DNA of 64,000 nucleotides, taken from IMG/VR virus record IMGVR_UViG_3300032242_002454, positions 1 to 64,000 of that record; one strand, written 5' to 3'. Source of the stretch: a virus. The translations under genes and the position numbers were made by a program. The notes under the pieces were generated by a model that was not told the DNA's origin, searched no databases, and saw only the letters and a list, made by a program, of their open reading frames with translations. This document shows, one piece after another, positions 3,418 through 55,977 of this stretch. Numbering within the stretch: the first letter of the stretch is position 1; each line of letters opens with the position of its first letter.

Positions 3418-5311
3418 ATGGACATGACTAGAGGATATGTGCCTCTTCATGTCCATTCTTAGGTGGGCTATGTACTCACTTTTGGATGGACTGTCGCAAC
3501 CAAGAACTATTGCTGAACGATGTCAAGAAATCGGAGCAACTTCTTGTGCATTAACTGATCATGGTAATATTGCCGGAGCAGTTAAGTTTTATACAGAAAT
3601 GAAAAAGAAAGGCATTAAGCCTATTCTAGGTTGTGAGGTTTATCTATGTGATCAAGACCCTAAGATTAAAACCAAAGAAAATAAAGACTTGACCCACTTT
3701 GTTATTCTAGCTAAGAATTATGAAGGGTGGAAGAGTCTTATTAGAATTGTTTCTGAGTCTAATCAACCAGATCATTTTTATCATAAGCCAAGACTAGATA
3801 TAGCCTCTTTGGCAAAGTATACTAATGGTAATATTATTGGTTTTTGTGGTCATGCTGGATCATATTTGGCAGATAGGATAACCTCTGATAATCGATTAAT
3901 TGGCGATTGGAAGAATGTTGGTATTGACCAAATTGGTAAATTAAAAGATGTTTTTGGCAAAGAGAACTTTTTTCTAGAAGCACAATTAATGGATTCGGTC
4001 AATTCTCCTATTCAGACACTCTTAACTGGTGCTATGAGAGATTTGGCCAAAATTACCAACACTAAAATCATATCTACGCCAGACGCTCATTATTGCCGTA
4101 AGGAGGACGCTGTAGATCAAAGGGTGCTTCTCTGTAATAATTTAAAAACAACCTTCCCAGAGATCAGCAGGAAGATTAGCAATGATGAGGAAGTGCCTCT
4201 TGGATGCTTTTTTACATCTGACAACTTCCATATCCTATCTCCAGAAGAAATGGGTCATTTTCATACAGAAGAAGAGATGGAGAATACCAAGTTAGTGGAT
4301 GCATTATGTGAAAAATATAATATATTAGATAAGCCACATTTACCCCCATTTCCTTGTCCTGACGGAGCTAATCCAGATGAATATCTAAGGCAATTATGTC
4401 GTAATGGTTGGAGAGATAAAATTGCTAATAATATAGATAAAGATATCCAAGAAGATTATGTGAATCGAATAAAGTATGAATTAGAGGTTCTACAAGGAGC
4501 CGATCTCTCTAGTTACTTTTTAATTGTACAAGATATTGTGAACTATGTCAGGAAAAATAACTGGCTTCCGGGACCGGGAAGAGGAAGTGCGGCTGGTTGT
4601 CTAGTCTCTTACCTGATTGGTATTACTAGTATTGATCCTATTAAGTATGGTTTATTATTTGACAGATTTTATAATGCTGGACGAAATAGTAAAGACCATA
4701 TCTCTATGCCTGATATTGACGTAGACGTACCTATTAATAAGAGAGAAAATGTAATCGAATATATTAAGCAGTGTTATGGGGCTGATAAGGTTTCCCAAAT
4801 GATTACATTTAATACTATTAAGGGTCGTGGTGCTATTAAGGATGTATTGAGAGTTTATGGTAATATATCATTTGATGAAATGAATAAGATCACTAAAAGT
4901 ATTCCAGATGAAGCTAAAATTGCCGACGATCTTCAAGAAATGAAAGAAGAAACTGGGGAAGCATCTATTATTCGGTGGGCATTAGAAAATGAGCCAGATA
5001 AACTGAAAGAATGGTGCTATATAGATGAAAAAAATGAATTACAAGGACCGCTTGCCAAAAGATTTGAACAGGCTATTAGATTAGAAGGAACTAAGTCTAA
5101 TCAGTCCAAACATGCGGCTGGTATTGCTATTAGTTCTAAACCATTAAATACATTGTGTCCTATGGTGTACGATTCAAAAAACGATCAGCTTATAGCTGGT
5201 ATGGAAATGCAAGATCTAGAAGCGTTAGGCATTATCAAATTTGATATTCTTGGCGTGGCAATGTTAGATAAAATTATGACTATCCAAGACATCTTATCAA
5301 AAGGAGATTAA
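3418..5311 (+). CDS. dnaE: DNA polymerase III alpha, N-terminal half (PHP and catalytic palm), +1 frame change near 3460
   Basis: The ribosome site AAGGAG before ATG 3418 gives MDMTRGYVPLHVHS, the first strand of a PHP domain with its HxH metal motif, and then hits TAG at 3460-3462. The rest continues in the +1 frame (open from 3437) with YSLLDG, TDHGNIAG, GCEVYL and TPDAHY, so the other PHP metal ligands are present. The polymerase core follows: PGPGRGSAAG near residue 379 (counted from 3437), the two-aspartate PDIDVDV near 425, SKHAAGIAI and KFDILG near 601 with the third catalytic Asp. The gene then ends; fingers, tau/beta-binding region and OB fold are in a separate gene from 6201. Expression needs programmed +1 frameshifting or reinitiation at ATG 3470, or the sequence has an error. 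Confidence 0.85.
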
Positions 5312-5510: not shown

Positions 5511-6208
5511 TCAATTATAACAAAATTTGCGTTTTTGATTTTGAAACCGATGGTTCTGATCCTAAATCTTGTAGCCCGGTACAAATTGCAGCAATAATTA
5601 TTGATCCACTAAAATTGGAAATTGTTCCTAACTCTGAATTTAATATCTTTTTTAAACCAGAGGTATTGGCAAATGATGAACAATATCAATATACTACAGA
5701 TATTTTGGATTTTCATGCTAAGGTAAGAGGCTCTTCTAAAGAAGCTATTTTAGAAGAATGGAAAAAGTATCCAGCTCAAGATCAGTCTTGGAAATTGTTT
5801 ACAAACTATTTAACAATGCATCATACAAGATCCAGCAAAAAGAGCCAGTTTAGTGCTCCTATTGCTGCTGGTTACAATATAAATAGATTTGACTTGCCAA
5901 TTATTGATAGATTGAGTCGTAAATATGGTAATACAAATAAGGAAGAAAGAAGCGATATTTTTTATCCAAGAGACGTATTAGATATTATGAACCTAGTCTT
6001 CTATTGGTTTGAAAATAATGGAGATCTCAAAAATCTTTCTCTGGATACTCTTAGAGATTATCTGGGCATAAATAAAGAGGGTTCTCATGATGCTCTAAAA
6101 GATGTTAAAGATTGTGCAGAAATTCTGATTCGTTTTATGAGACTACATCGTAACCTAGGAAATAAGATTAAGTTTAAGGACTCATTTCAGTCACCATCAC
6201 ATGTCTAA
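5507..6208 (+). CDS. DnaQ-like DEDDh 3'-5' exonuclease
   Basis: 233 residues. Exo I motif VFDFETDG near residues 9-16 gives the D and E ligands. Exo II is YNINRFDLPIIDR near 123-135. Exo III is SHDALKDVKDC near 193-203, with the His and Asp of the DEDDh subclass. The enzyme would remove misincorporated nucleotides for the phage DnaE polymerase, whose PHP domain is encoded separately. The gene lies exactly between the two polymerase halves and overlaps both neighbours by a few bases, which strongly suggests one replisome operon. The ribosome site is modest (GGAG about 12 bases upstream), so translation may rely on coupling. Confidence 0.88.
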   Translation: MINYNKICVFDFETDGSDPKSCSPVQIAAIIIDPLKLEIVPNSEFNIFFKPEVLANDEQYQYTTDILDFHAKVRGSSKEAILEEWKKYPAQDQSWKLFTNYLTMHHTRSSKKSQFSAPIAAGYNINRFDLPIIDRLSRKYGNTNKEERSDIFYPRDVLDIMNLVFYWFENNGDLKNLSLDTLRDYLGINKEGSHDALKDVKDCAEILIRFMRLHRNLGNKIKFKDSFQSPSHV

Positions 6209-7832
6209 AAAATTTCAATACAGTTGTGGATGTTCTTTTGACATTATATCTGAACATGACGATAAGGATAGAATGACTCTTAGATTTAATCCTAAAATAG
6301 AAGAGATAAGTTTGGAGTGTCAAAAGACTTGGGATCTAATTTCAGATGGAAATACTAAGGGGTGTTTCCAGTTGGAGTCTAGACTTGGTAAGTCTATGGC
6401 TAAAAAACTAAAGCCAGAAAATATAGAACAGCTATCTGCCTTAATTAGTATTATGAGGCCGGGTTGTCTAGAAGCTTTTAGAGATGGCAAATCAGTTTCT
6501 AATCATTTTATAGATAAAAAGAATGGTCAGGAGTCTGTAGACTATTATCATCCCTCTTTGGAGCCTATTTTAAAGGCAACGTATGGTGAAATGATTTATC
6601 AAGAACAAGCTATGGAAATAGCTAAGATCGTAGCTGGTTTTGATCTTCAGGAAGCAGACATGTTAAGAAAAGCCATTGGTAAAAAGAAACCAGAAGAAAT
6701 GGCTAAAATTAAGATTAAGTTCTTAGAAGGTACAGAAAAAGTAGGAACAGTGGCTACTTCTCAAGCAGAAGAAATTTTCGGCTGGATTGAAAAGTCTCAG
6801 AGATATTCTTTCAATAAATCTCATGCTGTTAGTTATGCTATTAATAGTTATTTGTCAGCTTATACTAAAGCTCATTTTCCCAAAATATTTTTTGCTGCAT
6901 ATTTAAGATTTGCAAAAGATAAAATTGATCCTAAAGCAGAAATTAAAGAATTGGTACAAAACGCTAACGAAATGGATGTTCCTGTTTGTATACCAGATAT
7001 TAGAAACTTAAATCAACTATTTATTCTTAAGAATAATAAGATCTATTTTGGACTAACAGATATTAAAGGTTTTGGACAATCTGTATTTGATAAATTAGTC
7101 AAACTCAAAGAAGATAAGAAGCTAGACTTCGATACTATGAATTGGATAGAAATGCTTATGATGGTTTTGATCAATATCAACTCCACATCTGCTAAAGCTC
7201 TAATTCAAAGTGGAGCAATGTCATATTTGGGTAAGAATAGGGTGGCCATGTTATTTGAATTTGGTTTAGTCTCAGAATTAACTAAGAAAGAATCAGATTT
7301 CATCATAGCTAATCTCTATAAATATAAATCAATAGGAGATGCTCTTCACGATCTATATCATAATGGTAAGTCTAATAAGAATAGAAAAGCTATTATACTA
7401 GACCTAATTAATAGTTATAATAAACCCCCATATTCTTTAGAAGATAATCCAGATTGGATCGCTGATGCGGAGGATTCATTTTTAGGATGTAGTATTACTT
7501 GTTCCAAGGTTGATATGTATGATATTACTATGACCAATACAACTTGTAAAGACTTTAAAAATACCACACTCAAAGATAATATTTTGTTGTGCGGAGAAAT
7601 TGAAAGTGTGGGTGTTACTAAGACCAAATCTGGCAAGACTCCGGGACAAGAGATGGCATTTGTTACTATGAGTGATGGAACAGGGGTAATTGAGTCTGTT
7701 GTATTTTTTCCAGAAGCCTACAAAGCTTATCGAAATATTTTATTTGATGGTAATGTTATTATCGTAAAGGGGAACAAAGCAAAGTCTGGTGATTCGTTAA
7801 TAGTTGAAAAGACGTATATTCCCAAAACTTGA
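6201..7832 (+). CDS. dnaE: DNA polymerase III alpha, C-terminal half (fingers, beta-binding region, OB fold)
   Basis: 543 residues. After a ~35-residue leader containing CGC, the chain aligns with DnaE from TWDLISDGNTKGCFQLES (near residue 50), which in one-piece polymerases lies shortly after the third catalytic Asp. ALISIMRPG, YHPSLEPILKATYG and YQEQAMEIA (fingers) follow. Then come FNKSHAVSYA (near 207), a helix-hairpin-helix-like region (YFGLTDIKGFGQSV) and a C-terminal OB fold from about 455 (LCGEIESV, FVTMSDGTG). It carries no polymerase catalytic aspartates and must pair with the product of the gene ending at 5311. No intein sequence is present at either break. It overlaps the exonuclease gene by eight bases and lacks its own clear ribosome site. 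Confidence 0.9.
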   Translation: MSKKFQYSCGCSFDIISEHDDKDRMTLRFNPKIEEISLECQKTWDLISDGNTKGCFQLESRLGKSMAKKLKPENIEQLSALISIMRPGCLEAFRDGKSVSNHFIDKKNGQESVDYYHPSLEPILKATYGEMIYQEQAMEIAKIVAGFDLQEADMLRKAIGKKKPEEMAKIKIKFLEGTEKVGTVATSQAEEIFGWIEKSQRYSFNKSHAVSYAINSYLSAYTKAHFPKIFFAAYLRFAKDKIDPKAEIKELVQNANEMDVPVCIPDIRNLNQLFILKNNKIYFGLTDIKGFGQSVFDKLVKLKEDKKLDFDTMNWIEMLMMVLININSTSAKALIQSGAMSYLGKNRVAMLFEFGLVSELTKKESDFIIANLYKYKSIGDALHDLYHNGKSNKNRKAIILDLINSYNKPPYSLEDNPDWIADAEDSFLGCSITCSKVDMYDITMTNTTCKDFKNTTLKDNILLCGEIESVGVTKTKSGKTPGQEMAFVTMSDGTGVIESVVFFPEAYKAYRNILFDGNVIIVKGNKAKSGDSLIVEKTYIPKT

Positions 7833-8334: not shown

Positions 8335-10002
8335 ATGTCTAACAAAAAACTCAAAATTTTAATGTGTTCCGAAGCCAGTTTTTTAAGCTCTGGATTTGGT
8401 ACTTATGCAAAAGAAATCTTAAAAAGACTCTATGCAACAGGCAAATATGAAATAGCTGAATTTGCTTCTTATGGAAAAGTTAATGATCCTAAAGACGTAG
8501 ATATTCATTGGAGATATTATGCTAATGCTGTGGATGATAGAGATCCAAGACATAAAGAATATAATAGCTCAATGGAGAACCAGTTTGGTAGATGGAGATT
8601 TGAGAGAGTTCTTTTAGATTTCCAACCAGATATTGTATTTGATGTAAGAGATTATTGGATGAATTCTTATCAACAATTTTCTCCATTACGACCATTCTAT
8701 CACTGGGTTCTTATGCCCACAGTCGATTCTGCTCCACAACAAGAAGAATGGATTGATACTTTTATTCATGCTGATGCTATTTTTACATATTCTGATTTTG
8801 GTAAAGACACAGTATTAGAGCAAAGCAATAATCAAATAAGATATATAGATACTACATCTCCTGGTGTTGATCTTAATACTTTTAATATTATCGCAGATAA
8901 GAAGTCTGTAAAAAAAGCTTTAGGATTAGATGAAGATAGTTTTATTATCGGTTCTGTGATGCGTAATCAAAAGAGAAAGCTTATTCCAGAGCTTTTTGTT
9001 TCATTGCGTAAATTACTAGATAAGTTTCAAACAGAAAATAATCCTATTGGAGAAAAGACATATCTGTATTTACATACCAGCTATCCAGATGCTGGCTGGG
9101 ATTTGCCACAACTATTAAAAGAATATAAGATAGGTAATAGAGTTCTATTTACATATAGTTGTAAAAACTGTGGCTTTTTTCAGCCATCTTTATTTCAACA
9201 TCCTCTCACTTTCTGTCCAAGATGTAGTCAAAAATCTTTGTCTATGCCTAATGTAAGTGCTGGAGTACAATCTAAAAATTTAGCTACCATTATAAATACT
9301 TTTGATATCTATGTACAATATGCTATTTGTGAAGGTTTCGGTATGCCTCAAGTAGAAGCTGCTGCTTGTGGTGTGCCAATAGCTTCTGTAGACTATAGCG
9401 CTATGAGTGACGTTGTTAGAAAAGTAAATGGTTATCCAGTTAGAATTAATCAATATTTCAAAGAACTGGAAACCAAAGCTATTCGAGCTTATCCAGATAA
9501 TAATGATTTAGTAGAAATACTATATAATTATGCTAATATGCCAGATTTCTTAAAAGAACAAAAAAGATTCGAAACCAGAAAGCTAACAGAAGAACATTAT
9601 AACTGGGACCATATTGCACAAAAATGGGAAAAATATTTTGATAGCGTTAAACTTACTGGTTTACAAGGTAAGTGGTCAGAAAACTTACCAATGTTGGAGA
9701 CTATTAAAGAACCAACAGGGAAAGTCAATCCATATGATTTTATGACACATTCAGTATCTAAGAATATGTCTCAACATCAGCTTACGTCATCATTAATACT
9801 ATTGAATATGATTAAAGATTTGGACTATGGTTTTGCTATTAATGGAATACAAACAGAACCATATGATATAAGCAAAGCATTAGATGTTATCAATAATATT
9901 ATTAACAATAACAATTTAGCTCAAAATGCTAAGATGAATCATGATAGTCTAAGAAATGAAGATTTTATCCAATATGCTCATATGAAAGAAAACCTAAAAT
10001 GA
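8335..10002 (+). CDS. GT4-type glycosyltransferase with an inserted zinc ribbon
   Basis: 555 residues. The N-terminal Rossmann strand is KILMCSEASFLSSGFGTYA, with the Gly-rich donor-side loop. The C-terminal GT-B half has YAICEGFGMPQVEAAACGVP, the EGFGxPxxEA signature of GT4 retaining transferases. Between them, near residues 274-304, two CxxC knuckles (CKNCGF and CPRCSQ) form a zinc ribbon not usual in GT4 enzymes. About 120 helical residues extend beyond the GT-B fold. It probably transfers a sugar from a nucleotide donor to a phage or host acceptor. The ATG follows the ssb terminator immediately and has no ribosome site. An internal ATG at 8362 would remove the first strand, so 8335 is kept. 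Confidence 0.85.
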   Translation: MSNKKLKILMCSEASFLSSGFGTYAKEILKRLYATGKYEIAEFASYGKVNDPKDVDIHWRYYANAVDDRDPRHKEYNSSMENQFGRWRFERVLLDFQPDIVFDVRDYWMNSYQQFSPLRPFYHWVLMPTVDSAPQQEEWIDTFIHADAIFTYSDFGKDTVLEQSNNQIRYIDTTSPGVDLNTFNIIADKKSVKKALGLDEDSFIIGSVMRNQKRKLIPELFVSLRKLLDKFQTENNPIGEKTYLYLHTSYPDAGWDLPQLLKEYKIGNRVLFTYSCKNCGFFQPSLFQHPLTFCPRCSQKSLSMPNVSAGVQSKNLATIINTFDIYVQYAICEGFGMPQVEAAACGVPIASVDYSAMSDVVRKVNGYPVRINQYFKELETKAIRAYPDNNDLVEILYNYANMPDFLKEQKRFETRKLTEEHYNWDHIAQKWEKYFDSVKLTGLQGKWSENLPMLETIKEPTGKVNPYDFMTHSVSKNMSQHQLTSSLILLNMIKDLDYGFAINGIQTEPYDISKALDVINNIINNNNLAQNAKMNHDSLRNEDFIQYAHMKENLK

Positions 10003-11120
10003 ATGTATTGTTCGTAGGACCATATAGACAACAAGATGGCTGGGGTTTAGCTACCCAAAGCTATATTAGGGCACTGGCTTCTCAAAAACACAATTTAACA
10101 ACTAGGCCTGTGTTTTTAGGGACTCCATCTAATATTATAGCTGATGATATTTTAGCTTATGAAAACTCATTATATGATTCTTATGATGTAGTTATTCAAA
10201 AGACACTGCCTCATGGTTTGTTTTACAATAAAAAATTTAAGAAAAATATAGGCTTATTTGTCTTAGAAACTAATAATATTGGTAACTCATCTTGCATTTT
10301 TAATATCAATCAGATGGATGAGGTGTGGGTTCCTAGTAAGCAAGAACAAAAATGTTTACTGAAATCAGGAGTCACTAAGCCGATTAAAGTAGTATCACAA
10401 CCACTTGATACCGATTTTATTAAGTCTAATAAAAACCATACTTTGGATCTTCACTCTCTAGTTAAAAAAACATTTAAGTTTTATTTTATTGGAGAATATG
10501 TTCAACGTAAAAACATTAGGGATTTGGTAACTGCTTTTCATTTAGCTTTCGATATGAGTCAATCAGTTTCTTTAATTATTAAAACTAATATCCCCGGTAT
10601 GTCACCTATTGATTCTCAAAAAACTATTGAAAAAGATATAGAAAGTATTAAAAGACAACTTAATATTAATCAAAAATATAAACAAGAAATTATTATCACA
10701 GATAGACTATCTGATAAAGAGATAGTTGGTCTACATAACTCTTGTGACTGTTTTGTTATGCCTTCTTTTGGTGAAGCATTTTGTCGTCCAGCAGCAGAAG
10801 CTCTTGTATTAGGTAAAACACCTATTGTAACTGACAATACTGGAATGGTAGATTATGTAAATCATGATAACGGTTTTGTGGTTCAAAGTCACAGAACCCC
10901 AGTTATGTTAAATCAAAGAACTTTATCTGTAGACTATGATATCTACAATGCTAATGAGTATTGGTATCGAGTTAATATGTATGATTTAATTGAAAAAATG
11001 AGATCAGCATATATAATGAATAAAAACGAAAAGAAAAAACTAGAAGAAAAAAGACTACTAGGTATTAATAGTATTGATCAATTTAGCTATCAACACATCG
11101 GGGAAAATCTATGTATCTGA
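9999..11120 (+). CDS. Glycosyltransferase, GT4-like
   Basis: 373 residues with two Rossmann halves. The first strand MNVLFVGPYRQQDGWGLATQ contains the donor-binding loop. IGLFVLETNN and MDEVWVPSKQEQKC are typical middle segments of phage and bacterial GT4 enzymes. VMPSFGEAFCRPAAEAL near residue 250 is the E-x7-E nucleotide-sugar site, followed by VTDNTGMVDYV. Start and upstream stop overlap as ATGA, so it is translated together with the larger glycosyltransferase before it. Substrate and acceptor are unknown. Confidence 0.85.
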   Translation: MNVLFVGPYRQQDGWGLATQSYIRALASQKHNLTTRPVFLGTPSNIIADDILAYENSLYDSYDVVIQKTLPHGLFYNKKFKKNIGLFVLETNNIGNSSCIFNINQMDEVWVPSKQEQKCLLKSGVTKPIKVVSQPLDTDFIKSNKNHTLDLHSLVKKTFKFYFIGEYVQRKNIRDLVTAFHLAFDMSQSVSLIIKTNIPGMSPIDSQKTIEKDIESIKRQLNINQKYKQEIIITDRLSDKEIVGLHNSCDCFVMPSFGEAFCRPAAEALVLGKTPIVTDNTGMVDYVNHDNGFVVQSHRTPVMLNQRTLSVDYDIYNANEYWYRVNMYDLIEKMRSAYIMNKNEKKKLEEKRLLGINSIDQFSYQHIGENLCI

Positions 11121-40300: not shown

Positions 40301-43300
40301 TCTTGAGCATAAACTACTCCACCCTTACTAAATCCATAAGCTTTCATAATCTGTGATAATAATTCACTAGCTGCTGGATTATTTTTAAATGCATCAGTAC
40401 TTTCAGCTTGTATAAGATTAGTGAATATTTCTCTAGGATCTTTTCTCAAGTCTTCGGCAGTATAGAAGGTTCCTGTTGCTTTTTTTAATGCATCCCAACC
40501 TTTTGGATCTTTTAAGAATGTTTCAATATTTTCTTGTAATCTTGTTTTAGTATTGAACGTATTTTTAAATTGACCACTAGCATTTACCAATGCATGACCT
40601 AATTCATGATGTATTAGTTTTGGATCAACATATTTATCTCTGTAATGAATAGATCCTGTTTTGTCACCATACGCGAAATACTGTCCATCGTAGTTTGGAT
40701 TATCAACATCTCCTTGACCATGAAACTCAAGACCAAAGTTACGTCTAGCAAGATTACGAAGTTTCCTACTTCCAGCTGTCATTTTTCCAGGTTTATAGCC
40801 GGTGGTGTATTTGTCCAGTATTTCCACAAAGGATCGTTTATGAGCTTCAAGATTTTCAGGATCAGTAACATTAACAGCACCAGGAAATGGTTCATTACTT
40901 GATTTTCCGCTATCTGTAACAGGATTAGAATTTATACGCACTCCTGTTTTTCTCTCTATTCTATCGATTAATGTTCCATCTTGAGCATAAACTATACCAC
41001 CTTTATTAAAATGTGGAGCACCCGAATATTGACTTATTATTGTATTAACCTTGAGTAAGCGGATATATTCCTCAAAACCATGATCCTCTTGAGTTTTTAA
41101 AATATTATCTAATGTTTCATTATGTAATTGTATTATTCCTTCTTTCGCAGGTATGTTTAACCGAGTATTTTTATTAGACTTATATATTGCTTCTACATAA
41201 TTTCTTCTTTCGTGTAGATTTTTTATAACACTATCATATGCCTGTTGTTTGTTATCTTCTCCTATTTGTTTATTAATATATTTTTGAGCTTGATCTGCTT
41301 TTTCCTCGACATCTAAATCTTCATGAAGCATATCATTATTAAAAATATCATACATATTTTTGTTAGACAATATATCATGAGCTGCTTTTTTTCCAAGTAT
41401 ACTCTTAAAATCTTTGAGGGGATTTGGGTTCCCAGCAGCTGCTGCACCAGGAAGTCCTCCTCCTTTTTGAAGATAAACTGGTCCTCCCTTGCTCTTATTA
41501 ATAGCTTGCAATAAAGGTAGATTGCTACTAGTAGCTTGAGCATTAACAACAAATTCTCCCGGAGTAAGCATTGCTGGTACAGTATCAGTTCCTCGTGGCT
41601 GATAATTAATTAGTTTGCCATTTGAAGCATATACCATACCACCACTACTAAATACTCTAGAAGCTATTAGTAATTTGTTAGTATTTTTAACTAATGCTTG
41701 GCCGGTAGAATCCACCTTATCGAATCTTGCAGCATTAGATGTAGCAATAGACTGCGTATTGTTTAATAATTTAGGTATTTCTTTATCTTTAGTAGTTTTA
41801 GTAATATCAGAAACTTGTGATGAAACTGATAAATTATTTTTAGTATTATTAGCAATTTCTTGTTGTAGTCTAGAATTAAGATCTCTATCACGAATTTGTG
41901 ATGATGCTTGTGTGGGGCTTAATGATTTTGTTTCGCCTCCAGCTGCTCTATAAATTACTCCACCGTTACTCTTATTAAGAGCTTGTAATAAAGGAAGATG
42001 TTGGCTAGTAGCTTTAGCATTAACAACAAATTCGCCCGGTGTTAACATTGCAGGAACAGTATCAGTTCCTCGTGGCTGATAATTTACTAAGGCTCCTTCA
42101 GCAGCATAAATCATTCCACCATTACTGGCTCCTTGGGCAACTCTGAAAGCTGGATTGCCAGCAGCAACCCTAGGATATAATAATCCAACAGTATTATTAA
42201 TATTAAAAGCTGATAGTCTAGCAGCATTAGCAGCATCAGTATCTTGTGGGTTAATATAACCCATTTTAGTTAATTGTTTACTGATATTATTTCTTAGCAT
42301 GGCCTGTTGGGCAAGGTTCATGCTTTGTCCTCTTGCGGCCATCTTATCAATGCTAGTAAAGTTTCTTAATAACTTAGCAAAAGTTTTTCCTTGAGCTTTC
42401 TCTAATCTCTTTCTCTCAGCCATAGTAGCCACATCCGCACCATAATCACCAGACTTATTATATATACGAAATGCAGCTTGTTCAATCTGATCTTGACTCA
42501 TTCTTAATATAGAAATATCTCTATCACTATATTTATAGTTACCACCAACCGTTTGCTGACTCATGGTTTTAATGAGCGCTTCAGCTTGTTCTGGAGTAAA
42601 TGGACGGAAAAGATCTTGAGCAGCATCAGCTGACAATCCATACTTTGTCAAGAGTTTTTCATCTAGTCTGGGACTGCCACTTAGATTAAACTTTGCTCTA
42701 AGTTTAGATAAAGTTTGTTCTCTCCATCCCATGAAAGCTTCTGGACTTCTGAATTTATCGGGAGCACCCATACCAACAGCTTTACCTACCGCTAATTCCA
42801 AATTAAATCGTCTAGAATTTGCCCTATTAGATGCTAAAATTTGTGCTCTATTAGCTTCTCTCTCTTGTTTTTTCTCATAGTTTTTCCATAATCTATTTTG
42901 TTCAGCTATTGGGTAATTTTCAGCAGCTTTATTATTTAATACTATAATTTCTCTATTTTTAGCACTAAGTTGTCTTTCTAATCTTGCTTTTTCTGCTTTA
43001 TCATCATCGCTCATATTTTTAGGGTCTTTATATTTAAACCTATCTAAATCAGCTTCTATCTCTTTCTTTTCTTTTCCTAGTTTTTCTGTTTGTTTATAAA
43101 CATCAATTCTATCTCCATCAAAAGCAATCTTTCCAACTCCTGGTGGTAATGCTGGATGAGCAACTAAACTATTAGCTTCTGCTTGATTAGAGGCTTGTCT
43201 ATTTCTCTTATATGTTTCTTCTTCTTTTTGTCTCACTCTTTGACCAGTTGCACCAAGTCCATAAAAATCAGTCTGTCCATTAACAATATTTATTCTCATT

Positions 43301-46300: not shown

Positions 46301-49300
46301 ATGTTTTCTCCTAGAACTTCACCACTAGCACCAGTCTGTTGTGCTTGAACAGCAATCTTAGTAATAGTATCTTCAGCTGAGGAACCAAATTTTGATAATC
46401 CTTCAACAAACTTCTTATCCGTACCAAACATACCGCTAACTTGACTAATTGCTGTTTGACGTTCTTTTTGTGAATAAGCATTAGGATTTTTTAATACGTC
46501 TTTAGACTTAAATTCTGTTTTTAGCGAAGCTTGACCACTTGCTATCTCATCAATTCTTTGACTAGCCTTATCTAGTCCCATAGTAGCTGCTGCAATAGCC
46601 TGATCCATGTTATCAAAAGTTTTAGAAATACTGACAGATGCAAGATTTAATGTTCGTGCAGATTGCTGTAAAGCTTTTACTCTGGATCTTTCTGCAACAG
46701 TAGCTTGTAGTGTTGCTGTTTCTTCTTTAAAATAGGTATTAACTAATTCTTTTTGTCTCTTCTCTATATCTGCTATGATCTGTGGATCTTGACCCGGTGT
46801 TTTCTTAATATTCTCTAGTCTTTGGTTTTCAGTATTAAACTTTTTATTTGTTTGAGCAATATTCAATTTTGCTAAGTCTTGATCTCCACCAAAAGAAGCT
46901 AAAGCTTCTTGAATATTTGATCCACTCTCAACCTTAGTACTTATTGTTTTAAGAGCTATCTCTCCAGCTACTTTTTGATTAGCAGTTTCTTCTTCTCCAA
47001 TTTGTTCATTTGTTGGTCTAGCAGCTTTATAGAAACCAAAAGAAGCCTTTTCTAGACCGCGAGTAAGCATACTAGGCTGACGTAGCTCTGCTTGTTTTGC
47101 TGATATTTTTTCTTCTTCAGCAGCAATACTCTTAAAATTTTGAATAATTGACGATGTAAGAGCAGCATCTTTTGGATTTTTATTAAGTTTTTCTAACTGA
47201 GCTTCCGCATTTGTTGCACTACCTTCTATTTTCTTTTTGCTAAGATCTATATCAGCTTCTGCAACTGCCTTTTTAAAACTATCCATAGCGAGAACTAAAC
47301 CAACAAATGCTCCAGTAGCTGCTCCTATGGGACCAAATTGCGCCCCAACAGATACGGCTCCACCAAAAGCTGTTCCAAAAGCGGCAGCACCTCTACCATT
47401 ACTTCCACCAACCATTGATCCTACCGCTTCTGCTGCCATAGGAGCAGCAAATGCTAATCCCAAACCTCTATTCATCCAAGCTGCTCTATTATCTCTCTTA
47501 GCCTGATATCTATTTCTATCGACATCAGACATATTAGCTATTTCATCTTCTGATGGTCCCATTATTCGACTTCTAATTGAACCCAATCCTCTGGATGCTC
47601 CTTGAAATGCTCTGGAAAGAGTAGGAAAGCTTTGTGCTAGCCTACTCTGAGATTGAGTATTTGTTTGAACAGCCTTATACAAACCTCCCCATGCGTCTGC
47701 TACTTTTCTTTCTGCTGCGGCCTTGGCCATAGAAACACTGACACTACTATCTGTTGCTCTAATTTGTCTAGTAAGAGATACTACCTGTTTACGTTGAGCA
47801 TCAGCTACAGCCTTAGCGGCATTTTGATCTCCTAAATCAGCTGCTTGTCTAGTACCAAGACTAACTCCTCCAATTACTTGATCTTCTGCTGCTCTATGAG
47901 CCGTATCAAAATCAACAGTAGGATTAGCTGCGGCTATCTGACCTACAATTTTAGCTAATAAATCATCTACTGCTTTTTCAGCTTGTGCCGATACTGCATC
48001 AAAACTTGATACTGCTTCATATGTTTTACCACCATCAGAAAATCCTTTTACTCTGCGAACAGCACCACCAGAACGATAACCTAAAGCTTTTGTTGCAGCT
48101 TCACGCAGAATAAAGCTGCCTACTGGTAAGTCTATTGGTCCAATACTATCGCTAGTACCTGTTCCCGAACCTTTAAAAACACTAATGCCTCCACTAGAAA
48201 ATGAGCTCATTCCGTTACGATCTGCTTGATTCATTCGGTTAAGTGTGCCATATCCTATTGCTTTTGCTGTTTCTGGTGGAATATAAGCCTCACCATTAGA
48301 AACCATAGCCTGAACATGTCCACCATCAGCTTTTTTAATGGGAGCTACTAATCTTGTTCCTCTAGTTATTTCTTTTTCTTCTAATAAAAGTTGACCGCTA
48401 ATCTTAGAAGCCATTGATTTATTTGTCGCAACATCATCGCTAGCTTTAGCATCCACATATTGCATACCGAGCTTATTGAACAAAGACCCGGCATCTCCAA
48501 GATAGTTTGGAAAATCGAAAGGTCTATTGGGATCAGGACTGGAATCGAAAGATCCCTTATTTCTCATAGCTCCTAAAATTTCTTCAAAAAAAGCACCCTT
48601 AGCTCCAGGATTAATACCTGCTAAAAATTTATCTTTCATTCCTTCTGTTACTGCTGGTTTAGGCAGACTACTAAATCCTGGTTTAGTAAATAATGTAGAT
48701 ACAGCACCATTAATTCCATCAAATAGACCTTGTCCGATTGCTTCATTAAAGTAATCTTTAGCTGGATCTGATAATCCTTGTTTAGTTAATACATACGGCG
48801 CTTTTCCTCTAGTATTATCTAGTACTTCTTTGGTATCTTTTTTGTATTTAGTAGGGGTTGCTGATAGTATATCTGTTGTGGTAATTAGACTCTTTTTCCC
48901 TTGGGATAATTTAGAAGATAAAATAGCAAAACCAACACTACTATCTTTAACTAAATTTCCAACACCTTTTAATCCTTTAAAAGATTCAGCTTTGTCTATT
49001 TTTTTAGATAGTGCGTTCTTTTTTTCTCCTACTTTTGAGGTATATTTCGCTATAATAGAATCTTTAATCTGTTGCTGTTCTAAACTTAAGTTTCTTGATT
49101 TTAATATTTTATATTCTTCTGAAGTAGCGCTAATACCCAGTCCTCTAGCAATTTCTGTCATTGAAGCTGGTTTTCCTTTATCTCCTCCTATAGAGAATGT
49201 TCTCATCTTCATAGATTCAATTCTGGATAACATCTTGCCTGTTCTTCTTCCTAACTTACCAGTTAAGTGATCTCTTTCTTCTCTTAAACTCTCCATTCTA

Positions 49301-52300
49301 GCTATAATTTCTGGTGGTGTAGTTTTGGTTTTTCTTGCTGGTAATTCAGATAATTGACTATTAATAGAAGATAATCTTCCTGATATTCCTTTTCCACTTT
49401 GGAAACGACTTAATATAGCATCAAGTAGTTGTGGTCTTCTTTGTAAGGTTTTAATATGTTGTTGTATATATTGAAAACCATCAGGAGTCAACAGTTTTTT
49501 CATAGCAACAATGTCATTATTCATGATTGCTGCTCTAGCAGCAGTACCGCTAATACCATTTCTTGCTATAGCTAATGGTGAGTATCCATATCTAGAATAT
49601 TTATCTGTAGTTAATGATCCTTTGTCGTCTCCAATAATAGCAACATTTCCTGTCTCTTTTGGTACTATGTATGAGTCATCTCCAACCTTAAATGAGCTAG
49701 GAATAGATCCCGGAGCACTTCCTTTAGGCATAGCAGAAACATTAAAGTCTCTAGAACCGAATACTGTTTGAGCCATACCTAGTCTAGAGGGACCATCTTT
49801 AGATGTTTGCGGCAGATACGCTGTTCTTATTTGTTGATCATCTCTTTTAAGAGGATCTATAGGAGTATCTCCAGACACTACTACAATAGTATCTTTAGCA
49901 CTAACTCCTGCTTTTTTAGCTCCTTGTTCAGCTGCACTAACATGACCAGCTGTTGCTGGACCAAAATTACCAACATAGATTGCTGTTTTTTCTGGTGTTC
50001 TTACTGTTGGTTGGTTAGTTCTCTTCTTAGAAAAATTAGAACCAATAGCATATGTTACTACTTTTTTAGGGTCAACTCCAGAGACGCTACTAGCTGCAAT
50101 ATAGGCTTCTCCTGGACCACTATCTAAAGAAGCTCCCTTCGTAGCTCCTACTTTACGTCCAAATAATCCTTGTCCTGTCTTATCTCTATACTTTCTATTT
50201 TCTACTAGTGCTGTTTGAGATTCTTTTGTTCTTGATGAAAGATTAATAATTCTATCTGATTGACTTAAAAATCCTCTTTGATTAGGACCAGCAACAGAAG
50301 TAGAGTCTATTATTTGATTTGATCTTAAAATATCTGCTTCTGTCAATATTGGATATCTATTAGTTTTTCTTAATCTGCTATTATCTGCCTGTTGAGCTTT
50401 AGAGCCTCCTTGAACAAATGTACTCTTGCCTGAACCTGCAACGCCATGAACAGTTGTTAGTCTACTTAAGTCTCCAGATTTACGTTTTGCTGCTGCAAAA
50501 TTAGATAAATGCATTTTATATTTATGTATATCTGCAATCTTAAGTCTTTCCATCTCTTTTCTAACAACAACTGCATGAATAGGATCATTTAATACGTCTC
50601 CATCTATATATCCTATATTACGAACTGTCTGTCCTCCAATATTAAATTTTTGAACACTTCCTCCTCCAGCATGTCTATTAATACGATGAAGATTTCCTAC
50701 TCCAATACTGCGAACAGCACTTTTTCTAATAACAAACTCACCAGGAGTCAACATGGCTGGAACAGTGTCTCCATCCCCAGAACCCGGAACATGACCACCA
50801 GCAGCAAAAGCCCTAATTTGTCCACCCTGACTATTTCTATTGGGTCTCATACCACCAATAAATCCTCTACCAAATTGACCAATAGCAGATAATCCTCTTA
50901 GTGCAAAGATAGCTCCTAAAGCTGGTAATGCTCCCTTAGCAGCATCTGTTAATCGAATTAAATTACTAGTTAAGTCTAAAGATAATTTAACGAAAGATTG
51001 GAATCCAGAACTTTGTCCAATAGATCGGACTAATCCTACAAATTCATTTCTTACTTTTGCCATTTGAACAGCTAAAGATTGTTGTGCTGTGGCAGCATCA
51101 ATTGCTAAAGAGTCTTGTCCACTTTGTGCAACCTTTAATGCTGCTTGAGCAGTTGCGAACTGTTGAATTAATGGGATCACCTTACCAATCTGACGGAAAC
51201 CACCAAGTTCTTCTACAATTCTGGAGAACTTTAAATCTCGGGGATCTAGTTGTGATAATCCTTCACTTAATCTTCTAACAGCTTCATATGGTCCAACGAA
51301 CTTGCCTTGTAGATCTGTTAATGTTACACCATATTCTTTAAGAGCATCAATTGTGTCGCCTCTTTGAATTCTGGTAAAAATTGTTCTTAAACCAGTAGCA
51401 ATAGTTTCAGCACTTTCACGAGTAGTAGCACGAACACTGGTAAATACAGCCATAAATTCATTTAAGGCTTGAGTACCTTCGCTAACTCCCTTACTAGCTG
51501 TAGCAAACACACCACCAGTACGTTGAATAGCAGTAATAATGTCACCGGCTTCAACAGCAAATTTAGCAGCTACAGCGTTTACTGAACCTAGTGCTCTATC
51601 TAATTCACCAGCACTAATACCGAACTGTCTCATCAATGCAATACTACCTTCTACAGTACTATTTAAATTATCGAATGATGGAGCTAATGCACTAAGTGCT
51701 AATGCTTTTAATGCTTTCTCTGTATCTCTAGCACTTAAACCAGCCTGAGCTAATGTACTAGATACTTTAATTAATTCATTAGATGACACACCAAACTTAG
51801 TAGATAGATCAGTAATTTCAGCAACTAATCCACCCAAGTTTTTAACTGATGTATCAGTAACCTGAGATACTCTCACTAATTCTTGATTAAAAGCAATAAA
51901 ATCAGTTGTTGCCGATGTTAAAGCATTAGATACTTTATAGATAACCCCTGTTACTGTAGCAAATGCGGCAAATCTACGAACAGCCAATGCTGATTGGCGA
52001 CCAAATTCCATAAAAGCCGAAGTAGTAGTATTTGCAGCATTAGTAGCAGCAGCATTTTGCTGAACCATATTTCGTGTAGCAGCATTGATCTGTTGTAGGT
52101 TTGCTGGTAGATTAGCAGCACTATTATTAACTTGCTGTATAGCTGCTCCAAGATTTCTCAAAGATAATGCTGTAGCATTTGCTGAAGCATTAGTAGCTTG
52201 TAAGGTATTATTAAAATTTCTAAAAGTTTGGTTGAGCGTATTAATATTACGGGTAACACCGGGATCAACACGAACATTAACATTAGCATTAATTGTTCCT

Positions 52301-52389
52301 AATTGTCGCCTAATATCAGCAACAACGGTCCTAATATTAGATGGTCCTCGTAAATTTAACTCTGCTGTAAGATTAAAACCTCTAGACAT
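37321..52389 (-). CDS. Giant tape-measure protein with embedded enzyme-like domains, 5022 residues
   Basis: The N-terminal ~400 residues match TP901-type tape measures (TDFIAFNQELVRVSQVTD, LSTKFGVSSNELIKVSSTLA, SAETIATGLRTIFTRIQRG). A linker centred on DTVPAMLTPGEFV recurs near residues 541, 2501, 3442, 3601 and 4839, joined by many GG[VIM]xYAxxG connectors. Embedded segments: P-loop GVAGSGKST (649-657); nucleotidyltransferase-like GNFGPATAGH (807-816) with GISGTAAR (945-952); PD-(D/E)XK-like GAFFEEILGA, FDFP, YVDAKAS (1265-1317); long coiled coils (~1650-2450); a zincin HELGH near 3928 with DPREIF about 60 residues later. A hydrophobic ~100-residue module occurs twice (near 4209 and 4658). 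It sets tail length, enters the host envelope and may carry enzymes inside. It follows a terminator; GAGG precedes ATG. Confidence 0.9.
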   Translation of the reverse strand: MSRGFNLTAELNLRGPSNIRTVVADIRRQLGTINANVNVRVDPGVTRNINTLNQTFRNFNNTLQATNASANATALSLRNLGAAIQQVNNSAANLPANLQQINAATRNMVQQNAAATNAANTTTSAFMEFGRQSALAVRRFAAFATVTGVIYKVSNALTSATTDFIAFNQELVRVSQVTDTSVKNLGGLVAEITDLSTKFGVSSNELIKVSSTLAQAGLSARDTEKALKALALSALAPSFDNLNSTVEGSIALMRQFGISAGELDRALGSVNAVAAKFAVEAGDIITAIQRTGGVFATASKGVSEGTQALNEFMAVFTSVRATTRESAETIATGLRTIFTRIQRGDTIDALKEYGVTLTDLQGKFVGPYEAVRRLSEGLSQLDPRDLKFSRIVEELGGFRQIGKVIPLIQQFATAQAALKVAQSGQDSLAIDAATAQQSLAVQMAKVRNEFVGLVRSIGQSSGFQSFVKLSLDLTSNLIRLTDAAKGALPALGAIFALRGLSAIGQFGRGFIGGMRPNRNSQGGQIRAFAAGGHVPGSGDGDTVPAMLTPGEFVIRKSAVRSIGVGNLHRINRHAGGGSVQKFNIGGQTVRNIGYIDGDVLNDPIHAVVVRKEMERLKIADIHKYKMHLSNFAAAKRKSGDLSRLTTVHGVAGSGKSTFVQGGSKAQQADNSRLRKTNRYPILTEADILRSNQIIDSTSVAGPNQRGFLSQSDRIINLSSRTKESQTALVENRKYRDKTGQGLFGRKVGATKGASLDSGPGEAYIAASSVSGVDPKKVVTYAIGSNFSKKRTNQPTVRTPEKTAIYVGNFGPATAGHVSAAEQGAKKAGVSAKDTIVVVSGDTPIDPLKRDDQQIRTAYLPQTSKDGPSRLGMAQTVFGSRDFNVSAMPKGSAPGSIPSSFKVGDDSYIVPKETGNVAIIGDDKGSLTTDKYSRYGYSPLAIARNGISGTAARAAIMNNDIVAMKKLLTPDGFQYIQQHIKTLQRRPQLLDAILSRFQSGKGISGRLSSINSQLSELPARKTKTTPPEIIARMESLREERDHLTGKLGRRTGKMLSRIESMKMRTFSIGGDKGKPASMTEIARGLGISATSEEYKILKSRNLSLEQQQIKDSIIAKYTSKVGEKKNALSKKIDKAESFKGLKGVGNLVKDSSVGFAILSSKLSQGKKSLITTTDILSATPTKYKKDTKEVLDNTRGKAPYVLTKQGLSDPAKDYFNEAIGQGLFDGINGAVSTLFTKPGFSSLPKPAVTEGMKDKFLAGINPGAKGAFFEEILGAMRNKGSFDSSPDPNRPFDFPNYLGDAGSLFNKLGMQYVDAKASDDVATNKSMASKISGQLLLEEKEITRGTRLVAPIKKADGGHVQAMVSNGEAYIPPETAKAIGYGTLNRMNQADRNGMSSFSSGGISVFKGSGTGTSDSIGPIDLPVGSFILREAATKALGYRSGGAVRRVKGFSDGGKTYEAVSSFDAVSAQAEKAVDDLLAKIVGQIAAANPTVDFDTAHRAAEDQVIGGVSLGTRQAADLGDQNAAKAVADAQRKQVVSLTRQIRATDSSVSVSMAKAAAERKVADAWGGLYKAVQTNTQSQSRLAQSFPTLSRAFQGASRGLGSIRSRIMGPSEDEIANMSDVDRNRYQAKRDNRAAWMNRGLGLAFAAPMAAEAVGSMVGGSNGRGAAAFGTAFGGAVSVGAQFGPIGAATGAFVGLVLAMDSFKKAVAEADIDLSKKKIEGSATNAEAQLEKLNKNPKDAALTSSIIQNFKSIAAEEEKISAKQAELRQPSMLTRGLEKASFGFYKAARPTNEQIGEEETANQKVAGEIALKTISTKVESGSNIQEALASFGGDQDLAKLNIAQTNKKFNTENQRLENIKKTPGQDPQIIADIEKRQKELVNTYFKEETATLQATVAERSRVKALQQSARTLNLASVSISKTFDNMDQAIAAATMGLDKASQRIDEIASGQASLKTEFKSKDVLKNPNAYSQKERQTAISQVSGMFGTDKKFVEGLSKFGSSAEDTITKIAVQAQQTGASGEVLGENITRELTQQLIDTFGDNRVSDAIRTELKDAVQENVKKNNGVLDPQALIESTGGLKQLIDSQKKSFNTMLGQYEFIEKGLNQYGEAVQKAAELQTQAIGKFANLQGYIADSNVALKEALGEGRNISLKERASGAYTESAINAGVKPGSLTAANLTNQRTLLMGQQAAVQGNISKLENSGNAADPAVISLINKQKEALAGLNRQIAATEKGLETLPDLIRKDMENTKAKIEQLRGEKENKTQVGASFGEKLVTSTPTELKNLNSTYDLLNRTLNGQITTINQSVSSQQAYQKVIQDGGTHMEAVGAAQEAFASEAKNSFSLFNELIQVSGLDVTDKQKANNLRADLIQNTARNQGLNVENNPFLRDIIANLRAAPKEDPQIKALENLYKQQQAALGEATQKAINPLLEKQAQILNTANTALITALTNLTNAFNNAQGRNEGLGLARPGNVMTRAQGGPVYAASGTLVNYEPRGTDTVPAMLTPGEFVVNRSATQRNLPLLKSINSGNYAKGGVVYLAGGTTNPVHHVGINVRPGHPLFRFLIARESDPTLSNPRTLKEWKNAISSAHRQGYTSGILDPMFEPYIQEVGDAIDRRDGRKPLPSQSSTTPKPKTTFKPDLPDTKPSFLTRARETAGSIYERTKGFLSGTRSGARNLGSGLANGARGFSANNAGSLTSLGAGVVLSASGVDEKTAHLLTTTGEFGVRFGHTFATAAGDATVGSMATTARAGTASTIALNTGIDAIRTGGEFLYDREAFHRNRVDSTRHNETSMIGGALQGFTRPINTMVEAGYTASSAIEAQHEAFDSTDRVNNALLRTRGPRGPSVIPFRDPLARFNVIERSALERLAELERERRRIQNGGAPKPVANQPGKFMDEAFLNQQMILTREALNSEDSTLVPGYLYGNTRVSRGNNTKGAENKNYYDRAIQDQITYTEMMEQRTQQEIERKRVQKVHARHEKAKAGREQRRQQRKIADRASSSIFGNVNGESIDASNMGSENEAPTSSRMRINIVNGQTDFYGLGATGQRVRQKEEETYKRNRQASNQAEANSLVAHPALPPGVGKIAFDGDRIDVYKQTEKLGKEKKEIEADLDRFKYKDPKNMSDDDKAEKARLERQLSAKNREIIVLNNKAAENYPIAEQNRLWKNYEKKQEREANRAQILASNRANSRRFNLELAVGKAVGMGAPDKFRSPEAFMGWREQTLSKLRAKFNLSGSPRLDEKLLTKYGLSADAAQDLFRPFTPEQAEALIKTMSQQTVGGNYKYSDRDISILRMSQDQIEQAAFRIYNKSGDYGADVATMAERKRLEKAQGKTFAKLLRNFTSIDKMAARGQSMNLAQQAMLRNNISKQLTKMGYINPQDTDAANAARLSAFNINNTVGLLYPRVAAGNPAFRVAQGASNGGMIYAAEGALVNYQPRGTDTVPAMLTPGEFVVNAKATSQHLPLLQALNKSNGGVIYRAAGGETKSLSPTQASSQIRDRDLNSRLQQEIANNTKNNLSVSSQVSDITKTTKDKEIPKLLNNTQSIATSNAARFDKVDSTGQALVKNTNKLLIASRVFSSGGMVYASNGKLINYQPRGTDTVPAMLTPGEFVVNAQATSSNLPLLQAINKSKGGPVYLQKGGGLPGAAAAGNPNPLKDFKSILGKKAAHDILSNKNMYDIFNNDMLHEDLDVEEKADQAQKYINKQIGEDNKQQAYDSVIKNLHERRNYVEAIYKSNKNTRLNIPAKEGIIQLHNETLDNILKTQEDHGFEEYIRLLKVNTIISQYSGAPHFNKGGIVYAQDGTLIDRIERKTGVRINSNPVTDSGKSSNEPFPGAVNVTDPENLEAHKRSFVEILDKYTTGYKPGKMTAGSRKLRNLARRNFGLEFHGQGDVDNPNYDGQYFAYGDKTGSIHYRDKYVDPKLIHHELGHALVNASGQFKNTFNTKTRLQENIETFLKDPKGWDALKKATGTFYTAEDLRKDPREIFTNLIQAESTDAFKNNPAASELLSQIMKAYGFSKGGVVYAQDGRKVESIVPFRSLADKRAAEKRTAYNASQEAKRNKAESFVPYPSLAAKIADQKKIAHGNAQQDKRNQAVVEQATREFKHKTRGALHDQEVYDRQNAYDNEMERRRQQENSPEAAQERQQQALDRDRNTRAPGFGGAGIQYDQQGKPYSRGGIIYAQSGGFLNQLLGYAQEAGLQAESFAYGAAKSVLPTLVGTGVGAVSGPAAPVTGIASGVAAAHAQENYLNAFAPELNEYMNKRMNERPWASMGGSAIGGGVTRAGGNITRIPELLKGSVGQRAASAGIGGGLSLGFSALDGKLTVDELKMAGRESMISAAIPGNLQSSKPQVPAQKPLSPREEAILKMVGTSTNLKEMITFLRVEAASGNSDTLDNSTYSQRLTEAAARDGGSIGENRSRYFFPENETEAASQLSFYLSKRSGTIQSLPQREQYNAPLDSLQDMVIKRLQLPRGEAEKYRLSHTNMSDHPLTKASAMRGSEFVFPKEVAQQATQVDIQDLPFHLQMSARYPNMAPALGIKASKYHSPRPHLSGIEYTGSGFPVQDTLTNKEQISQFLIESFTNRNELDKALDVGLLDDRFKSKGGVIYAQDGFDPSRPLNPMMNRHGKGPTSTLPQQPITNFDSEKLAGEGKAALYGAAKSILPGLAGLGAGVLGLPTTGPGGFAISLGAGTAVYKAQENYLNALAPELNKNINDTMEEHWQASLLGSVVAGAGADKIGRNLPTISFTRNIARFGGELSAPYTPSAAEQAAAAFRQGKPGIKTPPLSPETSKPGMLDGIFEEFKQKSLSSTHKANGGMIYASRGTLVNYQPRGTDTVPAMLTPGEFVVNRQATQQNLPLLQSINNGNNHMSGGGSVYLADGGSVPVTGSSTFNFGQIFTTLSQTTKQFTNSLQLAVNTLSEYQKQLSSTTTNSVSNNNGSNTLNMDGLSQFTNTFNKFIGQLEQIKIPEQVSLQGTHRVDVVINGASVFANMQEPIQRMIVTEVDKAMNNLSRKTEGVL
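37790..37938 (-). repeat. Tape-measure linker module, copy 5
   Basis: Encodes GGMIYASRG, PRGTDTVPAMLTPGEFVVN, then QNLPLLQSINN and another Gly-rich connector. It lies near residues 4818-4867, after the second hydrophobic module. Confidence 0.85.
38254..38416 (-). repeat. Hydrophobic module duplication in tape measure, copy B
   Basis: YGAAKSILPGLAGLGAGV followed by AQENYLNALAPELN about 40 residues on. It parallels copy A at 39620-39764 and probably derives from it by internal duplication. Confidence 0.75.
39620..39764 (-). repeat. Hydrophobic module duplication in tape measure, copy A
   Basis: YGAAKSVLPTLVGTGVGAV followed by AQENYLNAFAPELN about 35 residues on. The Gly/Ala-rich hydrophobic stretch could insert in a membrane. 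Confidence 0.75.
40110..40300 (-). repeat. Tandem ~32-residue repeat in tape measure
   Basis: Two adjacent units: ESIVPFRSLADKRAAEKRTA..., then ESFVPYPSLAAKIADQKKIA..., each ending in a basic Gln/Lys/Asn-rich stretch (EAKRNKA, QDKRNQA). They lie after a GGVVYAQDG connector near residues 4034-4097. Confidence 0.7.
41497..41646 (-). repeat. Tape-measure linker module, copy 4
   Basis: Encodes GGMVYASNG, PRGTDTVPAMLTPGEFVVN and NLPLLQAINKSKGGPVY, near residues 3582-3631. It is only about 160 residues from copy 3 and nearly identical to it in protein. Confidence 0.85.
41973..42123 (-). repeat. Tape-measure linker module, copy 3
   Basis: Encodes GGMIYAAEG, PRGTDTVPAMLTPGEFVVN and HLPLLQALNKSNGGVIY, near residues 3423-3473. 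Confidence 0.85.
44800..44946 (-). repeat. Tape-measure linker module, copy 2
   Basis: Encodes GGPVYAASG, PRGTDTVPAMLTPGEFVVN and NLPLLKSINSGNYAKGGVVY, near residues 2482-2531, at the end of the coiled-coil region. Confidence 0.85.
50670..50800 (-). repeat. Tape-measure linker module, copy 1 (divergent)
   Basis: Encodes GGHVPGSGDGDTVPAML, then TPGEFVIRKSAV and GNLHRINRH. It separates the TP901 core from the embedded kinase/nucleotidyltransferase region. Two degenerate relatives occur near residues 1370 and 1430. Confidence 0.75.
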
Positions 52390-54900: not shown

Positions 54901-55977
54901 TTAGTAATCATTACCTGGGGTTGGTAGCCCACTTTCAATAACATCAGTAAAACCAATTGGAGCATAACCACTACCAGAAGCAGGTGGAGTAAAGATAAAA
55001 TCACTGTATGTTGTATAGCTATAAGTGATTGTAGCATTACCACCATCAGTGCCACCGCCGTTGTAGTTAACTGACTTGAGCTTGTTCTTACTACCAAGAT
55101 CAATACTCATACCGTCGCAAAGAGCAATCTTGATACTCTTATTACTAAGAGCCTTTGGGTTACTGCAAGAGGTGTTACTGGAACCGCTAACTCCAACCAT
55201 GTCTCCAGTATTAGCTGTAACTTCAATATCTGTTGAAATTTCAACTGGAAACTTGATATAACGATAGTAAGGTGTTCTACTACCTAATTCACGAATTTGT
55301 TCACGACCAAGATTCATACTAACTTTAACACTGTTAATCTTAATACCACCTGGAATACCACCAGAAGCTGACTGTTTATCCAAAGTGTTACCGACCCCAG
55401 TACCACCAGTTGGAAGAATAGTATTAGCAACACTCCATAATCCACGACGCATAATACCAAGACCTGACGGAACATCAACAGATGGTGCTGTTCCAGTAGA
55501 ACTTAGTGCTGATGCCCATGTTTTATCGTTACTTACCAAAGTAACTTCTTCTGTAAAATTACCATCTGTGGGGAAGTTATATGTGACAGATGATAGGTAG
55601 GCTGGGGTGCATTCCACTACTGCAATAGGAACACCTGTGGCACTAGTAACTGTATCTGGATAAAGCAACATTTTGACACCGCAACGATTATTTGCTAAAT
55701 CAGCTAAACTGCCACTACCCATACTCATTTCATAGATTGTTGGCATACCATCTAAAACTTTATTCAAAGTAATTTCAACTTCTGGAATTTCTTCATAGTT
55801 ATCATATAAAGAAAGTTGACCAAGTTGATAAACTGGTTCTAGATTAAAGTTTGTTTGCATTCCGACACTTTGTAAACCTTGTACTGTGTCGTAGTCAGTA
55901 TTGAAGGTACGTTTAGTGCCTGATGGACCAGCTAATTGAACAGATTGGCAGGCGTAGTAAATACGATTTGAGGCCAT
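54901..55977 (-). CDS. Major tail tube protein
   Basis: 358 residues with GGAG eight bases before ATG. It begins MASNRIYYACQSVQLA and has a first beta sheet with GLQSVGMQTNFNLEPVYQLG and YEEIPEVEITLNKVLDG, the layout of tail tube proteins of long-tailed phages. A beta-rich core follows (VTYNFPTDGNFTEEVTLVSN). The C-terminal third (IEVTANTGDMVGVSG, ITYSYTTYSDFIFTPP) may be an added surface domain. Position before the chaperone-like genes and tape measure supports the call. With a tape measure of this size many copies of this protein would be needed per virion. Confidence 0.75.
   Translation of the reverse strand: MASNRIYYACQSVQLAGPSGTKRTFNTDYDTVQGLQSVGMQTNFNLEPVYQLGQLSLYDNYEEIPEVEITLNKVLDGMPTIYEMSMGSGSLADLANNRCGVKMLLYPDTVTSATGVPIAVVECTPAYLSSVTYNFPTDGNFTEEVTLVSNDKTWASALSSTGTAPSVDVPSGLGIMRRGLWSVANTILPTGGTGVGNTLDKQSASGGIPGGIKINSVKVSMNLGREQIRELGSRTPYYRYIKFPVEISTDIEVTANTGDMVGVSGSSNTSCSNPKALSNKSIKIALCDGMSIDLGSKNKLKSVNYNGGGTDGGNATITYSYTTYSDFIFTPPASGSGYAPIGFTDVIESGLPTPGNDY

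Follow-up and report, generated by a model that had tools for sequence, protein, structure and literature searches.

Tape measure proteins (TMPs) occupy the lumen of the phage tail and exit before the DNA. TMPs with built-in peptidoglycan hydrolase domains exist, and the tape-measure enzymes known so far are mostly cell-wall attackers. Ejection of the TMP has been described for the RcGTA tail, into the periplasm (PMC7296036). A precedent for cargo acting at entry is given by polyvalent injected proteins (PMC5512222, PMC9503650), and zeta-toxin-like kinases are reported among the domains of such proteins (PMC5512222). Phage NadR proteins, which join a nucleotidyltransferase (NTase) of the HIGH superfamily and a P-loop kinase, have also been described (PMC7824862, PMC9503650).

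The locus presented here holds a P-loop domain followed by a HIGH NTase inside a TMP. With the known HIGH NTases (NadM/NadD/NMNAT, PPAT, UPF0348 MJ0951; PF01467, PF16581, TIGR00125) the module shares the Rossmann-like fold and the motifs GxFxPx[TH]xGH and ISxTxxR in that order, but it has about 14% identity to them, forms a subfamily of its own under the curated cut-offs, and lies within a TMP behind a P-loop domain. As in NadR of phages and bacteria (NMN adenylyltransferase and ribosylnicotinamide kinase), a HIGH NTase and a P-loop domain are found in one chain, whereas here the order is reversed, the P-loop half is unrelated by profile, PnuC is absent alongside, and the carrier is a tail protein. 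Polyvalent or virion-injected proteins are likewise long virion-type proteins; their enzyme domains are exchangeable and have been proposed to work during entry. Slot exchange and several unrelated enzyme-like inserts (HAD-like and PD-(D/E)xK-like, both at motif level) are seen among the present TMP and its relatives too. The present carrier is a TMP, while the main text of PMC5512222 mentions neither TMPs nor the pair of P-loop and HIGH NTase domains. In hydrolase-bearing TMPs the enzyme domain is also within the TMP, but those enzymes act on the cell wall outside the cytoplasm and the module would need ATP or CTP. Phage "cytidyltransferase" proteins (phrog_395, phrog_3041; BFVD matches) resemble the NTase half weakly by profile and clearly by fold and, unlike the module, are not annotated as TMPs. 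Searches of open-access literature on TMPs with a nucleotidyltransferase, a kinase or a polyvalent protein did not turn up such a module.

The window, the whole stretch of 64,000 nucleotides that was analysed, comes from a virus record of 204,625 bases. Its TMP matches PhageMin_Tail with E 8e-25 over aa 191-384. Searching IMG/VR with the N-terminal core of this TMP as query gave 80 relatives; the closest core from a cultured phage is that of Rhodococcus phage Reynauld (27% identity), and the lineage is without a close cultured relative. Its giant TMPs range from 2,600 to about 7,600 aa, and TMP open frames in the records G003 (which contains locus L089), G006 and G005 reach 7,577 aa. The ruler of a 7,577-aa TMP would exceed 1 micrometre if all helical, and the variable slots may therefore not count towards tail length. 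Elsewhere in the window, DNA polymerase III alpha is present as two ORFs (3437-5311, with PHP and polymerase core, and 6201-7832, with fingers, HHH and OB), and a pair of neighbouring glycosyltransferase group 1 genes is found at 8335-11120.

Table. Features of the TMP gene, in window coordinates.
Feature	TMP residues (aa)	Window position	Strand	Basis or remark
Tape measure protein ORF, 5,022 aa		37321..52389	minus	PhageMin_Tail PF10145 and PHROG tape-measure families
Conserved N-terminal TMP core	1-560	50710..52389	minus	Aligned in 80/80 relatives
First GDTVPAMLTPGEF linker repeat	541-553	50731..50769	minus	DNA like it is found at several further places in the TMP gene
Exchangeable slot	~578-1355	about 48325..50658	minus	No DNA similarity to L002 here; flanks 92% and 88% identical
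P-loop (kinase-like) domain	589-799	49993..50625	minus	Alignment A3; model pLDDT 86, pTM 0.83
Walker A, GVAGSGKST	649-657	50419..50445	minus	Sequence motif
HIGH-superfamily NTase domain with helical tail	800-1010	49360..49992	minus	Profiles, model, Foldseek
xGH-motif region, AIYVGNFGPATAGH	803-816	49942..49983	minus	Sequence motif
GNFGPATAGH (GxFxPx[TH]xGH motif)	807-816	49942..49971	minus	Sequence motif
ISGTAAR (ISxTxxR motif)	946-952	49534..49554	minus	Sequence motif
PD-(D/E)xK-like region, E...PFDF...DAK	~1249-1315	48445..48645	minus	Motif level only; no Pfam match

A sequence-only reading of this DNA had pointed out the Walker A loop, an xGH motif about 150 residues further on and GISGTAAR at aa 945-952 (window 49534-49557), and all lie where it placed them. 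The motif series in the TMP is confirmed as a real observation. From the composition of the TMP, 0.85 Walker A, 7e-5 GxFxPx[TH]xGH and 0.16 ISxTxxR motifs are expected by chance, and the joint expectation for all three in the observed order and spacing is about 2e-8.

The module proper (aa ~589-1010) is narrower than the slot in which it lies. A scan of the 80 TMP relatives, widened by further searches, brought the homologous modules on the TMP tree to about 23 distinct ones. All of them belong to uncultured phages and lie in TMP-type ORFs; the motif series keeps the same spacing among carriers while its position in the TMP differs. In the alignment of 22 rows (A3; 28-69% identity to the window), a GxxxxGK[ST] P-loop is present in every homologue, followed after 152-166 aa by a GxxxPx[TQ]xGH-type motif (22/22; exact in 21, with one inserted residue in L041) and after another 123-144 aa by xS[GA][TS]xxR (22/22). 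The invariant columns include G593, D596 and D598 (GxIDxDV), the Walker A residues G649/G654/K655, the LID-like R735/R745 and D756 in the P-loop half, the G and H of the xGH motif (A3 columns G232 and H233) and the S and R of ISGTxxR. Pairwise dN/dS values of 0.04-0.24, with dS close to saturation in the most diverged pairs, show that the module is under purifying selection. All 12 records searched contain exactly one module, always inside a very long TMP-type frame, and it was not found in cultured phages, plasmids or GTDB genomes. Among the matches listed for a P-loop-anchored scan there was nothing beyond one P-loop in Macrococcus, attributable to chance, and comparison with PADLOC gave P-loop-level matches and nothing more.

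As a single sequence, the window's TMP gave no Pfam match above the cut-off for either half (CTP_transf_like E 0.04; AAA_33 E 0.035), single-sequence searches of PHROG and PDB gave matches too weak for a decision, and NCBIfam TIGR00125 cyt_tran_rel stayed sub-threshold (E 6.4e-5, 23.1 bits; cut-off 27.7). Among ten module members, PF16581 was matched by eight (best E 1.2e-6) and PF01467 by four, and in six TMPs PF01467 aligned over its full length (2-132/133), in all cases below threshold. The profile of the NTase half against PDB gave UPF0348 protein MJ0951 first (E 1e-6), then NMN adenylyltransferase 9x6f (E 2.5e-4), NadD and PPAT, with the N- and C-terminal motifs both aligned in order in 3gmi, 9x6f and 5llt; no HIGH NTases were recovered from PDB when the P-loop half or the HAD-like insert supplied the profile. 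An AlphaFold model (pLDDT 88.7, pTM 0.86) had NadM/NadD as its top Foldseek matches at probability 1.00, and in the viral structure library BFVD the NTase half is resembled by phage cytidyltransferase-like proteins. Profile search and model thus recovered the HIGH NTase proposed from the motifs. The second half has (H/T)xGH after its first strand and ISxTxxR on the C-terminal side together with the fold and profile match, and because of the family conservation, the profiles and the confident model its place in the HIGH superfamily is secure; it is a predicted NTase with a substrate that cannot be read from the sequence.

In the first half, a P-loop domain, a LID-like R...R segment is conserved. 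The model of this half is confidently alpha/beta, with Walker A between strand 60-66 and helix 72-76. No significant Foldseek neighbour was obtained (E >= 0.06, best probability 0.69), the best informative match being zeta toxin 6epi (E 0.08, probability 0.66), and Zeta_toxin of Pfam was matched in one of ten members (E 0.015). Given this lack of a significant structural neighbour, the term kinase rests on the motif pattern: the strand, SS-T-EE and R...R past the P-loop make a kinase likely but unproven. The PDB matches of the P-loop profile (UvrA and others) covered Walker A alone and were not taken as kinship. L047 (aa ~673) and L058 (aa ~791) have a P-loop insert that begins in a similar way (GVFDSDMI...GPAGSGKTTF) but lacks the NTase half, so the P-loop part may also move on its own.

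The more important fact, which the sequence-only reading did not contain, is that whole modules are exchanged in the TMP slot. Starting at window position 54983, the close relative L002 is 92% identical in DNA as far as 50658 (TMP aa 577), where all similarity is lost; it is regained at aa 1356 and continues at 88% over 3.6 kb. What L002 has in the gap is unlike the module: its insert shows the HAD-like motifs DFDRTLA, SARP and FIDDDxRN together with a GEVKF segment, and L001 (flank 87% identical in DNA) also has a HAD-like insert in the slot. On the TMP-core tree of 78 rows the module is patchy (present in 23, absent in 44, not scorable in 11), with 13-14 changes, of which at least 10 are forced by well-supported branches. 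The loci extend about 3,300 aa beyond the core, and modules lying past that point could have escaped notice; the known ones lie within aa 585-2070. The slot is flanked by repeated TPGEF / GGxxQKF linkers, and the TPGEF linker DNA, which is repeated along the TMP gene with 73-92% identity across phages, could provide recombination sites.

Taken together as one reading, we lean towards the view that aa ~589-1010 are a folded, catalytically competent two-domain payload enzyme. On this view the giant TMP is modular, the enzyme occupies a slot in it that is exchanged by recombination, and it is delivered with the TMP and acts in the host cytoplasm. The P-loop half would then probably be a small-molecule or nucleotide kinase. 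The TMP would leave via the tail before the DNA, and the module would cross the tube unfolded or extended and refold once it has reached the cytoplasm of the host and its ATP. There it might phosphorylate and/or adenylylate (or cytidylylate) a host metabolite, a signal nucleotide or RNA and so aid the first minutes of infection, for instance against nucleotide-based defence. Delivery together with the TMP is plausible, and the other modules in the same slot of close relatives suggest that exchangeable enzymes are delivered by the ruler as well. Only in the cytoplasm would a module that depends on ATP be of use, and it is from this that we infer extended passage, refolding in the cell and an early role; the kinase chemistry, a coupling between the domains and the target are likewise conjectural. 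Against the payload reading, a folded module of ~45 kDa would be too large for the tail lumen, and a module that acts in assembly should show exchange and selection too.

A role in tail assembly or elsewhere in the producing cell, such as modification of a tail protein or of the TMP itself rather than action in the next host, would fit a TMP that is a late product made in many copies, and is compatible with the tool results. Unrelated inserts replace the module in close relatives, which makes it dispensable for assembly, and we regard this role as distinctly unlikely. That the module is an enzyme-derived but inactive spacer which only lengthens the ruler appears highly improbable: the slot length varies freely among TMPs, as in filler sequence, yet diverged homologues keep the active-site motifs in invariant columns and dN/dS is low.

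Regarding the substrate, an RNA- or tRNA-directed enzyme (TmcAL-like or end-modifying) is unlikely. In such a case the NTase would activate a group through adenylylation, so that tRNA or RNA could be repaired or modified at entry, and the P-loop half would serve it as a polynucleotide kinase or as a partner driven by ATP. UPF0348 MJ0951 is the top profile match, and two members have a weak match to NCBIfam "nucleotidyltransferase" PRK13670, a family that includes TmcAL; HAD-like and PD-(D/E)xK-like enzymes, whose motifs occur in the same slot of relatives, are also common in nucleic-acid metabolism. However, the MJ0951 match is mainly a 50-residue ISGTxxR segment, and no RNA-binding domain was recognised in the module. 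NadR-like NAD salvage or reconstitution, in which the P-loop half would convert nicotinamide riboside to NMN and the NTase half NMN to NAD, delivered to offset NAD-depleting defences, is very unlikely, even though the fold and motif of the NTase half resemble NadM/NadD/NadR and phage NadR with both kinds of domain is already known (PMC7824862, PMC9503650). When NadR of E. coli and of three phages was compared with the module halves by hhalign, the NTase half gave 89% over 41 columns around the HIGH motif, which is common to many HIGH enzymes, while the P-loop half reached a probability of 8.5%. The NTase is N-terminal to the kinase in NadR and follows the P-loop domain here, and the best single PDB profile match, MJ0951, is not an NMNAT. 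In T5-like phages PnuC adjoins nadR; among the 11 module-bearing records PnuC was found in none and NAPRTase in one, with no other NAD-salvage context found there. Kinship to NadR was rejected for the P-loop half on the profile comparison. The two domains suggested earlier, P-loop then HIGH NTase, stand by conservation, profiles and model, and the suggested kinship to NadR does not; judged from its sequence, the module would work as expected of a HIGH NTase with a fused P-loop domain, yet is not a NadR.

Further enzyme-like inserts and motifs occur in the TMPs. A HAD-phosphatase-like insert (alignment A9) is found in L001 (aa ~940-1070), L002 (aa ~995-1120), L019, L022, L029, L045, L052 and L074, and its motifs DFDRTL, ARP, K and DD..N do not vary; it lies in the same TMP slot except in L052, where it is further downstream, beside the P-loop/NTase module. 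Its profile had no match in Pfam or PDB, and its HAD identity is at motif level only. The PD-(D/E)xK-like region is common to the window and to relatives with other inserts, and its E...DF...DAK motif occurs in 28 of 81 TMPs, a set that includes near-identical contigs, against 5.2 in shuffles. A zincin-like metallopeptidase motif, HHELGHAL, is present at window 40594-40608 (TMP aa 3928-3932) in a variable stretch (aa ~3640-4817) with a sub-threshold DUF4932 match only in Pfam.

It is tempting, if tentative, to regard the giant TMPs of this lineage as modular effector-delivery rods, with repeat-bounded slots swapped between phages, the tail ruler doubling as a polymorphic effector system. The cytoplasm-acting cargo of such rods might comprise the P-loop and HIGH NTase pair, the HAD-like phosphatase, the PD-(D/E)xK-like nuclease and the zincin-like peptidase. 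The presence of the module in a TMP raises the question of how folded domains get through the tail tube. If the payload reading is true, the ruler itself contains effectors for the cytoplasm, which the tail delivers ready for use before phage genes are expressed, and comparing variable TMP slots would be a route to many hidden effectors.
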